Assembly: GCF_029223545.1 (NCBI RefSeq) | Contig: NZ_CP097870.1 | Coordinates: 3,100,001 to 3,164,000, forward strand | Direction of reading: 5' to 3' | DNA: 64,000 bases | Source of the DNA: Thauera sp. GDN1 | GTDB taxonomy: Bacteria > Pseudomonadota > Gammaproteobacteria > Burkholderiales > Rhodocyclaceae | Part shown: piece by piece, positions 59,611 through 64,000 of the stretch | Numbering within the stretch: position 1 is the first letter of the stretch | How the letters are laid out: every line of letters begins with the position of its first letter | Notes under the pieces: model-generated | What the model saw: only the letters and a program-made list of their open reading frames with translations | What the model was told of the DNA's origin: nothing | Database searches by the model: none | Program-made: the position numbers and the translations under genes

Positions 59611-60039
59611 TCAGATCTCGAGAACTTGCGGCTGCTGAGCGGTGTGCGGATGCGACGGACCCGCGTAGCACTTCAGCTTCTTCAGCATGGCGTAGCCCAG
59701 CGGGCCCTTCGGCAGCATGCCCTTCACCGCCTTCTCGAGCACACGCTCGGGGAAGCGCTGCTGGAGCTTGGTGAAGTTGGTTTCGTAGATACCGCCCGGG
59801 TAGCCCGAGTGACGGTAGTACTTCTTGTCCTGCGCCTTGTTACCGGTCACGCGCAGCTTGTCGACGTTGACCACGACGATGAAGTCGCCGGTATCGACGT
59901 GCGGAGTGTAGATGGCCTTGTGCTTGCCACGGAGGCGGCGGGCGACTTCGGCGGCGAGACGGCCAAGCACCTTGTCCGTGCCGTCGACAACGAACCAGTC
60001 GCGCTTGACCTCGTGCGGCTTGGCGGAAAACGTCTTCAT
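59611..60039 (-). CDS. rplM: 50S ribosomal protein L13
   Basis: A 142-residue ribosomal protein with [37 protein letters not shown] and the HSGYPGG motif. It is the first gene of rplM-rpsI. A good promoter lies 58-87 bp upstream, so the operon does not depend on the transcript predicted further upstream. Confidence 0.98.
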
Positions 60040-60096: not shown

Positions 60097-60126
60097 ATCC
60101 TACGACCAACACCCCGACTGTGTCAA
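60097..60126 (-). promoter_or_regulatory. Promoter of rplM-rpsI
   Basis: On the minus strand a consensus -35 TTGACA (60126-60121) and -10 TAGGAT (60102-60097) are 18 bp apart. The start near 60090 gives a leader of about 50 nt before rplM. Confidence 0.75.
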
Positions 60127-60165
60127 TCACAGGATTACGATGGCGAATGTTCGCGTGCGAAAGGC

Positions 60166-60285
60166 AAAAAAAACGCAGTCCGACCGGACTGCGTTAAATC
60201 CACACCAAAGGAGGAGGGTGGAGGAGACACCATTTGGATCGGCACAAGCTCATGGACTTCAACAGCTGCGTCTGCGATCCGACTG
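60166..60285 (-). ncRNA. Candidate small RNA with C-rich anti-Shine-Dalgarno loop
   Basis: An RNA of about 120 nt is predicted between its own promoter (60292-60320) and a strong terminator (stem ACGCAGTCC / GGACTGCGT at 60173-60194, then eight U). GGATCG and CGATCC can form a long-range 5' stem. CCAAA (60232-60236) and TTTGG (60206-60210) can close a loop that exposes TGTCTCCTCCACCC and TCCTCC, perfect complements of GGAGGAGACA-type ribosome binding sites. No convincing protein frame is present. C-rich-loop sRNAs that block translation are known in Neisseria and alphaproteobacteria. The rplM operon has a separate promoter, so this is not simply its leader. Expression is not proven. Confidence 0.6.
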
Positions 60286-60291
60286 AGACGA

Positions 60292-60320
60292 ATTATGCAG
60301 AGCCGGGCAGCCTGCTGCAA
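60292..60320 (-). promoter_or_regulatory. Promoter of the sRNA candidate
   Basis: On the minus strand TTGCAG (60320-60315) and CATAAT (60297-60292) are exactly 17 bp apart. The -10 matches consensus at five of six bases and the -35 at three. AT-rich sequence lies upstream. Confidence 0.6.
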
Positions 60321-60666
60321 CAGTTTTTTGTGCGCCGCAGAACGAAAGATTTGATTTATTGATCAGCTTTGTTTATTAGCTTTCAGCGTTTTGATTTATC
60401 TCAATTTTCAGCCCAGCTCACACCCTCCTCCCATGCCTCAGGGCGCCATTCTGATAAGCAGCGCACATCGATATTGTGCACCGCATCACTACGCCCCCGT
60501 ATCGAACCCTGCCCTCCGGTTCACGAACGCCCGCCTCCACCCGACTGCCAGCCCATGCGGACCGACCCCGAATCGGGGCGCGCTCGTCGCAGCGATGTCG
60601 CGCTGCGGTAACATCCGCCCCTCGACGAACGAACATCGACGGGGCCACCCCGGGGAGCAGACAGGA
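60321..60666. other. Intergenic region between sRNA promoter and OsmC gene
   Basis: About 345 bp without a convincing gene. The left part is AT-rich and contains TTGATTTATCTCAA (60391-60404), an FNR-like box with one mismatch, about 112 bp upstream of the predicted sRNA start and 263 bp upstream of the OsmC start. The right part is GC-rich with no clear promoter. Confidence 0.5.
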
Positions 60667-61086
60667 ATGGAATGCACGATCAAATGGCTGGACGGGATGA
60701 GCTTCATCGCCGAGACCGGCACCGGACACCTGGTCGCGATGGACGGTGCGCCGGACGCCGGCGGCCGCAACCTGGCGCCGCGGCCGATGGAACTGATGCT
60801 GGCCGGCGCGGGTGGATGCACCGCCTTCGACGTCGTGCTGATCCTCAAGCGCGGGCGTCACGACGTGCGCGGCTGCAGCGTGCGCCTCGTGGCCGAACGC
60901 GCCGACACCGACCCCAAGGTATTCACCCGCATCCGCTTCATCTACACCATCACCGGACGCAAGCTGAAGCGCGAGGCGGTCGAGCGCGCGGTGCATCTGT
61001 CGGCCGAGAAGTACTGCTCGGCCTCGATCATGCTCGCCAAGACCGCCGAGATCAGCCACGAGGTGGAGCTGGTCGACGCCGACTGA
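60667..61086 (+). CDS. OsmC family protein
   Basis: A 139-residue OsmC/Ohr-fold protein. The two redox cysteines are Cys51 (GAGGCTAFDVVLIL) and Cys117 (KYCSASIM). OsmC-type enzymes reduce organic peroxides; this YhfA-like branch is less well characterised. The start MECTIKWLDGMSF follows AGACAGGA. It is a single gene, convergent with the coq7 operon. The longer upstream frame encodes no family sequence. Confidence 0.9.
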   Translation: MECTIKWLDGMSFIAETGTGHLVAMDGAPDAGGRNLAPRPMELMLAGAGGCTAFDVVLILKRGRHDVRGCSVRLVAERADTDPKVFTRIRFIYTITGRKLKREAVERAVHLSAEKYCSASIMLAKTAEISHEVELVDAD

Positions 61087-61117: not shown

Positions 61118-61738
61118 TCAGATCCGGTAGGTGACGGTGGTCATCACCCGCGCAGCGAGCTTCATCAGCCCCCTGGCCGGGGCGGGCAGTTCATGCGCAC
61201 CGAGACGCACCGCGGTCTCGGCATGCTCGGCTTCGTCCGCCTTCATCTGCTCGACGATGGCGCGCGAGCGCTGGTCGGCGGCCGGCAGCGTGCCGAGGTG
61301 GCTCTTAAGATGCTGTTCCACCTGACGCTCGGTCTCGGCGAGGAAGCCGAGGTTCCAGCGCTCGCCGAAGCGCCCGGCGAGCATGCCGATGGCCAGCGCC
61401 CCGCCATACCAGAGCGGGTTGAGCAGGCTCTTGCGTCCGCCCAGTTCGGCGATGCGACGCTCGGTCCATGCCAGGTGCTCGGTTTCCTCCTGCGAGGCCT
61501 GGCGCAGCGTGTCGCGGATCGCCGGGTCGCCCGACATGATCGACTGCCCCTGGTAAAGGGCCTGCGCGCACACCTCCCCCACATGGTTGACCCGCATCAG
61601 CGCCGCGGCATGGGCGCGCTCGGCGTCACTCAGCGCGGCATCGGGTACGTCTTCCCCGGGTACCGGACGGACGCTGCGCGCGGGAGCGAAGACGGTGCGC
61701 AGCGCCTTGTCGAACTCGACGATGGCCTGATCGATCAT
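61118..61738 (-). CDS. coq7: Ubiquinone biosynthesis hydroxylase Coq7
   Basis: A 206-residue di-iron carboxylate monooxygenase that hydroxylates demethoxyubiquinol (C-6). Two ferritin-like repeats supply ligands: [22 protein letters not shown], the later VEQHLKSHL and DEAEHAETA. It is the type found in betaproteobacteria in place of UbiF. Its ATG overlaps the stop codon of the CNP1-like gene by one base (TAATG). It is the last gene of the Fe-S/DUF3501/CNP1/coq7 run. Confidence 0.94.
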
Positions 61739-62286
61739 TATCGACCTCCGTAGGGATGGCTGAGGTCGCGCCGCTGCTGGAGGAGCTGCAGCGCGTGCTT
61801 GCGGTCGCGCGGACCCGCCGGGCCATCGCAGAAATAGTCCCAGGCGAGCGCCGCGCGCGGCCGGTTGTAGGTGTTGTCGCCGATCGGCTGCCAGTCGCTG
61901 TTCTTCATCGCCACCCAGCTGCCATCCTTGCGGCCGCTGGCGTAGATGCGGCGCTCGCCGGTGGCGCAGCGGATGCCTTCGAAGGTCACGTTCTCGGCGC
62001 CGCCGGGCGTACGCACCACCAGCGTGTAGCGGACCACGCCGTCCTCGCCGACGCTGACGCTGCCCTCATCGACGAAGAACGCATTGGGGGACGGCGAGCC
62101 GATGTCGAACGCGCGCAGCCCCGCTTCCTGCGGCGCCGGCGGCATGGCCGCCTCGACCTCCTTCCAGTCGGGATCGGCATCGACGAGCAGGCCCGCGGAT
62201 GCCGACATGGAAAAAGACGCGAGGGCCACGAGGCCCCCGCACAGACATTGCCTGAGGATCGGGTTCAAGAAAGCAAATCTCCGCAC
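61738..62286 (-). CDS. CNP1-like family exported protein
   Basis: A 182-residue protein with an N-terminal signal sequence (about residues 1-31, ...SMSASAGL). The mature part contains family features [33 protein letters not shown] and an NSDWQPI segment. CNP1-like proteins, first noted in Neisseria and other betaproteobacteria, have no known function. It overlaps the DUF3501 gene by 22 nt and coq7 by one, so its expression is coupled to both. Confidence 0.8.
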
Positions 62287-62848
62287 AGCGACTGCCGTAC
62301 CGTCTCCGGCACGACATCGACCGTGACCGTGTAGTTGGGATGATCGACCCCCGCCGCAAGCGCCGCCCCCGCCTTCAGCGCCGCCACGCGGGCAGGGCCG
62401 AGCTCGAAGCGCAGGAAATGCACCGACGAGGTCTTTTCGGCATTTTCGCGCTCGAGGTCCTCGTCCGCAATGGCGAAGACCGGCTCGAAGCCCGCCACCC
62501 GCACCCAGACGCGGTCCTCGATGCCGATCAGGCGCGCCAGCCAGGCCTTGCGCTCGGCCTCGTCGGGAAACTCGATCAGCATCGTCGCCTTCCAGTTCCG
62601 GCCGTCGGGCACCAGCGGATTGTATGCGTCGAGCTCGTCCTGGATGCCGGCTTCCTCGAAGGTGCGCTCGATGCGCAGCATCTCCTGGATCTGGTAGCGG
62701 ATGGTGAGCTCGTCCTCGAAAACCAGGGTCACGCTGGGGCCGAGCGCGAGCGTGCGCGTCTTCTTGTGCGCGATCACCCGCGCGCGGAAGGCCGCGCGCT
62801 CGCGGGCGTAATGCTCCAGGCTCAGCAGGCTGTCGCGTGCGATCGCGC

Positions 62849-62852
<4 letters not shown>
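62265..62852 (-). CDS. DUF3501 family protein
   Basis: A 195-residue soluble protein with the family pattern ITRDSLLSLEHY-like start (SAIARDSLLSLEHYARER), IRYQIQEMLRIERTFEE, DAYNPLVPDGRNWKATMLIEFPD and HFLRFEL. The function is unknown. DUF3501 genes usually follow a large (Fe-S)-binding oxidoreductase and often rubrerythrin, which is the case here (ATGA overlap). Its ribosome binding site TGGAGGAGACAC is complementary over 12 bases to the loop of the sRNA candidate near 60.2 kb. Confidence 0.9.

Positions 62853-64000
<1,148 letters not shown>

Follow-up and report, generated by a model that had tools for sequence, protein, structure and literature searches.

A conserved PhaR-type operator upstream of the RF02278 anti-Shine-Dalgarno sRNA near rplM in Thauera suggests a possible link between carbon storage and translation control

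Rfam family RF02278 (“Betaproteobacteria toxic sRNA”) comprises the “double-hairpin RNAs” ncS03, ncS05, ncS27 and ncS62 of Burkholderia cenocepacia and Hsnc59, 63, 86 and 107 of Herbaspirillum, which share two hairpins, CU-rich stretches complementary to ribosome-binding sites (RBSs) and a terminator. Overexpression of ncS27 slows growth and its silencing speeds growth; in the portions of the literature available, inhibition on overexpression is reported for Burkholderia members, but not for S17S in exponential growth. ncS03, ncS05 and ncS27 were up-regulated in glucose medium (8.0-, 6.9- and 4.3-fold respectively; ncS62 is not in the table), but biofilm and starvation raise the Burkholderia copies as well. 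The accessible text of PMC5688073 states that the regulator of their accumulation is unknown.

S17 of Bordetella pertussis, as described in the available sections of PMC11722255, is transcribed as a long form (S17L, 190 nt), whose start lies 7 bp downstream of the promoter, and is then cut with the help of RNase E. It represses BP2158 by pairing with the RBS, as demonstrated with compensatory mutants, and had no effect on two other candidate targets tested; its level follows Bvg, and the authors postulate a repressor of the S17 promoter. The Neisseria RNAs NmsRA/B and NgncR_162/163 (RF02877) are sibling sRNAs with anti-Shine-Dalgarno sequences, whose likeness to the RF02278 RNAs was already noted in PMC5688073; the gonococcal pair controls branched-chain amino-acid uptake (accessible text of PMC9973317), and the NmsRs are reported in the sections available to be under RelA, unlike the PhaR control proposed below. 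Sinorhizobium MmgR sets a precedent for PhaR repression of an sRNA, with a PhaR (AniA) site in its promoter (available parts of PMC12542648 and PMC8401924), but it belongs to another RNA family and class, and it lowers phasins. The alphaproteobacterial ar14 (RF02344) has a similar layout of C-rich loop and terminator.

An additional RF02278 RNA is encoded in the 64,000-nt stretch of the Thauera sp. GDN1 genome analysed here (the window). The minus strand upstream of rplM matched the model over its full length (positions 1-64 of 64) with 65.3 bits in cmscan, against a cut-off of 50 (Table 1), and sequence and predicted fold presented the family traits: two hairpins, the second being the intrinsic terminator, and unpaired RBS-complementary stretches. 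Membership of NmsRb or ar14 was rejected, both models scoring under their gathering cut-offs (31.8 vs. 52 and 20.3 vs. 58.8 bits). The RNA is an anti-Shine-Dalgarno RNA with a gene separate from rplM, and a member of a known family in which ncS27 and S17 have already been studied. The initial annotation had proposed a candidate anti-Shine-Dalgarno sRNA here and recommended a search of Rfam; the proposal was supported, but that search places the RNA above the RF02278 cut-off, so it is not a new candidate. The annotation had missed the name of the family as well as the conserved operator of PhaR type. Resemblance to S17 extended to the coq7 neighbour, the 17-bp promoter spacing, Sites 1 and 2, and GU-GU at the 5' end of the short form, while the predicted primary transcript is shorter than S17L and the other flanking gene differs. 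Its GGUGU resembles the S17 cleavage sequence and is a candidate for RNase E processing.

Table 1. Features of the sRNA locus and its surroundings in the window
Feature	Position	Strand	Basis or remark
RF02278 match	60165..60229	-	covariance model; counterpart of the processed short form of S17/ncS27
Predicted primary transcript, about 120 nt	60166..60285	-	5' end inferred from the -10
Invariant 31-nt core UGUCUCCUCCACCCUCCUCCUUUGGUGUGGA, with both anti-Shine-Dalgarno stretches	60199..60229	-	alignment
GGUGU, candidate cleavage site	60228..60232	-	inferred from likeness to the S17 GU/GU site (cut between GU and GU)
Intrinsic terminator, 10-pair stem (60172-60195) and eight U	60166..60195	-	stem covaries in relatives
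-35 TTGCAG	60315..60320	-	sequence and comparison; 17-bp spacer to the -10
-10 CATAAT	60292..60297	-	sequence and comparison
PhaR-type operator GTTCTGCGGCGCACAAA, 1 mismatch of 17 to YTKNTGCRNYGCANMAR	60327..60343	-	6 bp upstream of the -35
Second, weaker PhaR-type box, 2 mismatches	60473..60489	-	sequence
rplM (ribosomal protein L13)	59611..60039	-	
rplM promoter TTGACA-18-TAGGAT, separate	60097..60126	-	promoter scan
osmC-like gene, conserved divergent neighbour	60667..61086	+	
coq7, conserved neighbour, as for Bordetella S17	61118..61738	-	
Candidate target site TGGAGGAGACA in the RBS of the DUF3501 gene (62265-62852)	62855..62865	-	pattern and duplex energy

The promoter that the initial annotation had read on the minus strand (TTGCAG-17-CATAAT, 60320-60292) was recovered. 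Among linked relatives (copies sharing the neighbourhood described below), a promoter could be called in 43, and 35 of these have the 17-bp spacer. It matches the consensus at 8 of 12 positions and was absent from the output of the promoter scan, which gave the rplM promoter alone; its support is therefore comparative. The same applies to the terminator with eight U, since the terminator scan found 2 sites against a mean of 2.0 in shuffles: it rests on conservation, with 6 pairs of its stem showing pair-keeping changes on both sides. The fold of the 65-nt core was far more stable than expected (z = -6.1; none of 200 shuffles equal). The annotated C-rich loop was present and conserved, but the CCAAA/TTTGG stem suggested to hold it gave way in the predicted fold to UCCACC/GGU.GUGGA, which closes a loop with CUCCUCCUU and leaves UGUCUCC single-stranded 5' of the stem.

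Matches to RF02278 (E <= 0.001) were found in 58 of 61 genomes drawn from the bacterial family of the source genome, above the Rfam cut-off in 44. A copy lay less than 400 nt upstream of rplM and on its strand in 38 of the 61 (two of them, G032 and G027, under the cut-off), and 1.8 kb from rplM in one further genome. Linkage to osmC and coq7 was broader than linkage to rplM, being kept where rplM is not adjacent (L003, L004, L022 and L091), and at two more loci (L017 and L089) osmC alone stood beside the sRNA, again with rplM not adjacent. The order-level draw gave a match in 67 of 100 genomes (42 above the cut-off), and in 36 of the 56 followed a copy had osmC, coq7 or rplM in the surrounding stretch. 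At class level 24 of 94 genomes had a match, with only the window's own genome above the cut-off, so that this sample contributed little. A search of plasmids with a Paraburkholderia copy gave no match.

Thirty-one contiguous nucleotides (60199-60229) were invariant in 39 aligned linked copies, a set chosen by the 9-nt motif TCTCCTCC[AT] that omits 5 of the 44 distinct linked copies (L055, L062, L066, L089 and L091). Because this sequence never varies in the set, the core hairpin offers no covariation evidence. Loss of the C-rich loop and terminator in relatives would have refuted the initial annotation, and both were kept. Bordetella S17 adjoins coq7 (accessible text of PMC11722255), and Burkholderia ncS27 adjoins BCAL3348a, while the list of ribosomal protein genes in the available part of PMC5688073 includes BCAL3348; given these shared neighbourhoods, the window copy is probably the ortholog of both, a judgement made from gene order rather than from their DNA.

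Two promoter layouts were distinguished: the linked copies mostly had about 40-65 nt from the -10 to the core, and most unlinked copies started close to the core. The source genome has one copy of each, the window copy and a second one (C1:3256234-3256302) that follows phaC.

Upstream of the sRNA promoter lies a sequence close to the Ralstonia eutropha PhaR consensus YTKNTGCRNYGCANMAR, deduced from published sites in the available text of PMC12849132. This consensus was fixed beforehand and searched for in the 160 nt upstream of each copy, allowing at most 2 mismatches. Of the 44 linked copies, 42 had the box, against none when the sequence was reversed (dinucleotide shuffles: mean 2.4, maximum 7); of the 25 unlinked copies, 20 had it, against 3 on reversal (shuffles: mean 1.05, maximum 4). 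Random 160-nt windows from the same loci matched in 2.6% and 3.6%, and the terminator side of linked copies in 6 of 44. Its position was also constrained: of the 42 linked copies for which both a promoter and a box were called, 24, the window copy among them, had the box ending exactly 6 bp before the -35, and 7 had it overlapping the -35 by a fixed amount. Seven matches with at most 1 mismatch occur in the 64-kb window, so that a single box is weak evidence, and the case for an operator is carried by position and conservation. Boxes in the next 160 nt upstream (160-320 nt from the core; 25 of 44 linked copies) suggest second operators.

Confinement of the box to the short unlinked copies was considered and rejected. 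This impression came from the first 60 nt upstream, where a box with at most 2 mismatches was found in 17 of 24 unlinked vs. 1 of 45 linked rows, a misleading view because in linked copies the box mostly lies about 80-110 nt upstream of the core. A contig scan for the box core followed, after a gap of 20-28 nt, by the sRNA 5' end returned at least 120 loci. In the 80 loci listed, 51 matches showed the strict shape of the sRNA, and 49 of these had a gap of 26 or 27; they came from Zoogloea, Azoarcus, Aromatoleum, Thauera, Ralstonia, Paraburkholderia and others. The remaining 38 matches listed comprised further sRNA copies with other loops (including Cupriavidus, gap 24) and matches with scattered gaps in unrelated phyla.

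The regulator itself is encoded in the source genome (phaR; PF07879, E = 1.2e-29) and in 69 of the 100 order-level genomes. At order level, counting copies of at least 40 bits, a boxed copy was found in 27 of 33 genomes with phaR vs. 1 of 15 without (Fisher p = 1e-6; the genomes are related, and p values here and below serve as guides). By copy the figures were 29 of 52 boxed in phaR genomes vs. 1 of 22 in the others (1 and 0 respectively in the reversed control), and 35 of 67 vs. 1 of 25 when the score limit was lifted; a few of the boxes counted at order level are not at a promoter-like distance. Just 11 of the 36 unlinked copies in order-level phaR genomes were boxed. Within the bacterial family phaR is present in 59 of 61 genomes, so its presence tells us little there. 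The source genome contains 12 exact consensus sites vs. 0 for the reversed pattern; among the ten inspected, one is at the second sRNA promoter and one at a phasin gene, and others, identified by protein starts alone, stand before fabI, thiolase and panB genes. A close match also precedes phaB-phaR (phaB likewise named from its protein start). A neighbourhood of PHA genes was rejected as an explanation of the unlinked copies, only 6 of 84 boxed loci having a PHA-protein match.

Three matches resembling RF02278 but under the cut-off (33-40 bits; L341 in G174, L326 in G220 and L337 in G226) are located some 0.7-0.95 kb from phaR and are oriented away from it. Copies in genomes lacking phaR often have a different motif, like ATATTAGATAATTCTAATA, over the -10 (L259, L281, L293, L294, L296, L298, L299, L302 and others), where a different regulator may have taken over.

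Repression of this sRNA by PhaR, relieved when PHB granules titrate PhaR, with a filled store then curbing uptake, is the account that we favour, with moderate confidence for the reading as a whole. The alternative with most to recommend it, which is possible although we consider it rather doubtful, is that the box is read by another regulator or that PhaR activates the sRNA. The location of the box upstream of the -35 in linked copies would suit an activator as well, PhaR activates phaP3 in R. eutropha (available text of PMC12849132), and genomes lacking phaR retain the sRNA behind a different upstream sequence. On the other hand, the motif tested was the PhaR consensus set in advance, boxed copies track the presence of phaR, the same motif precedes the phasin and phaB-phaR genes of the source genome, and in unlinked copies the box overlaps the -35, as suits repression.

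Constitutive or growth-rate-controlled expression of the sRNA, with the box serving something else such as osmC, appears improbable: divergent osmC does share the intergenic region with the box, but the spacing of the box to the sRNA -35 is fixed, and the 20 boxed copies among the 25 unlinked ones have no osmC beside them. A leader or attenuator of rplM would account for an RNA upstream of rplM, on its strand and with a terminator at its end, but is very improbable, since a -35-like TTGAC followed the terminator in all 37 copies near rplM, the sRNA stands beside osmC-coq7 at loci that do not contain rplM (L003, L004 and L091), and unlinked copies exist; the initial annotation had argued against a simple ribosomal leader from the separate rplM promoter, which the promoter scan found again at 60097-60126, and its argument was borne out. 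That the stretch encodes a small protein, as a 19-codon ATG frame running into the core of the window copy and a putative 32-residue frame noted for S17 (accessible text of PMC11722255) might hint, deserves hardly any credence, because the ATG-started frames into the core (29 of 44 copies) are spread over all three frames (16, 13 and 12) and not conserved, in line with the earlier view that the roughly 120 nt hold no credible protein, and not one of the 31 core bases varies, even at third codon positions.

Candidate targets were sought among RBSs of the source genome. The pattern TGGAGGAGACN(2-10)ATG occurred three times (reversed pattern 0), and two of the three occurrences were gene starts, those of a periplasmic binding protein (PF13458, which we read as LivK-like) and of the DUF3501 gene (PF12007). 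Computed duplexes with the sRNA reached -20.5 and -23.7 kcal/mol (LivK-like and DUF3501 respectively), compared with -10.6 and -11.5 kcal/mol for the 16S tail. At least 8 contiguous matches to Site 1 were found in the LivK-like RBS of 22 of 30 loci from the bacterial family, counting as misses two rows (L364 and L381) that look misassigned, while none of the rplM, rpsI, coq7 and argC RBSs (120, 104, 49 and 69 distinct) reached 8. Where GGAGGA precedes the ATG in the loci compared, the bases directly following it were GAC in 17 of 26 LivK-like genes (the source genome's own gene, the seed, among the 17) vs. 3 of 46 other genes, from which the pattern-selected DUF3501 gene was removed (p = 1.6e-7). 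As GAC is outside the stretch that pairs with 16S rRNA, this extension fits selection for pairing with the sRNA. The LivK-like gene, on this comparison of sequences, retains complementarity beyond the Shine-Dalgarno core and provides one conserved candidate target site. The mRNAs for phasin, phaB and phaR were rejected as targets, having no more than 7 contiguous matches to Site 1; unlike those lowered by MmgR, the phasins of the source genome had RBSs with at most 6 such matches. A gene for a protein with a cysteine-rich domain (PF02754) overlaps the start of the DUF3501 gene, both lying within 62265-63991 on the minus strand; the RBS of the latter is a strong candidate target.

The circuit that we infer would work as follows. 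The sRNA would be transcribed from its own promoter, and processing of the primary RNA would probably leave an RNA of about 65 nt, which would pair through UGUCUCCUCC and the CUCCUCC loop with RBSs and lower the translation of transporter and catabolic genes. Free PhaR would most likely repress the sRNA through the PhaR-type operator; PHB granules would draw PhaR away, as PhaR quits the phaP1 promoter for PHB granules (available sections of PMC12849132), and the sRNA would be induced, so that a full carbon store would raise the sRNA and limit further uptake and growth. The sign of the PhaR effect is the weakest step, since PhaR both represses and activates, phaP3 being among the genes it activates. 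The conserved likeness to an operator suggests, short of proof, that through this site a full carbon store may lead the cell to reduce nutrient uptake. For the order as a whole, we put it at slightly better than even that control of the “toxic” anti-Shine-Dalgarno sRNAs by the PHB-storage sensor PhaR is ancestral and that they act as carbon-satiety RNAs, reducing amino-acid and carbon uptake as granules fill, with other promoter elements where phaR is absent.

The family was already known, and its control is what the operator would explain, if it is one. A PhaR-type operator, unlike in the window copy, is not mentioned for RF02278 members in the literature to the extent available, and no report of PhaR control of the family was found in a literature search or in the accessible text of PMC8401924, PMC9049629, PMC10987360 and PMC11332829 (Kimelman 2012 and the 2019 NcS27 paper were outside the scope). 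The link between operator and sRNA is apparently new, although figure S3 of PMC5688073 shows an upstream motif common to three copies and the box may be drawn there. A 2021 review, in its accessible text, says of Cupriavidus necator that the role of riboregulation in PHB synthesis “remains undeciphered”. A true PhaR operator would join carbon storage and translation control in one testable circuit, in genera used in bioplastic production and aromatic degradation.

Other observations concerned further copies and the 5' part of the RNA. NmsR-like copies with TTTCTCCTCTATTTCTCCTTTGTAGA were seen at L311 (G245), L318 (G184), L320 (G228), L334 (G196, two copies), L336 (G179) and L338 (G225); five of these six genomes also have a further RF02278 copy, and the NmsR type looks like a paralog reaching beyond one lineage. 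In G184 and G228 the motif resembling ATATTAGATAATTCTAATA is likewise found upstream of the NmsR-like copies. The 5' part of linked copies (60230-60285 in the window; L029, L043 and L048 among the relatives) showed a predicted stem just before the presumed cleavage site despite differing sequence, and consensus folding of this part from the automatic alignment gave no pairs. At L085 (G044), in Aromatoleum tolulyticum (L178) and in Azoarcus sp. Aa7 (L182), four or five boxed copies of the sRNA are clustered in a region of a few kb.
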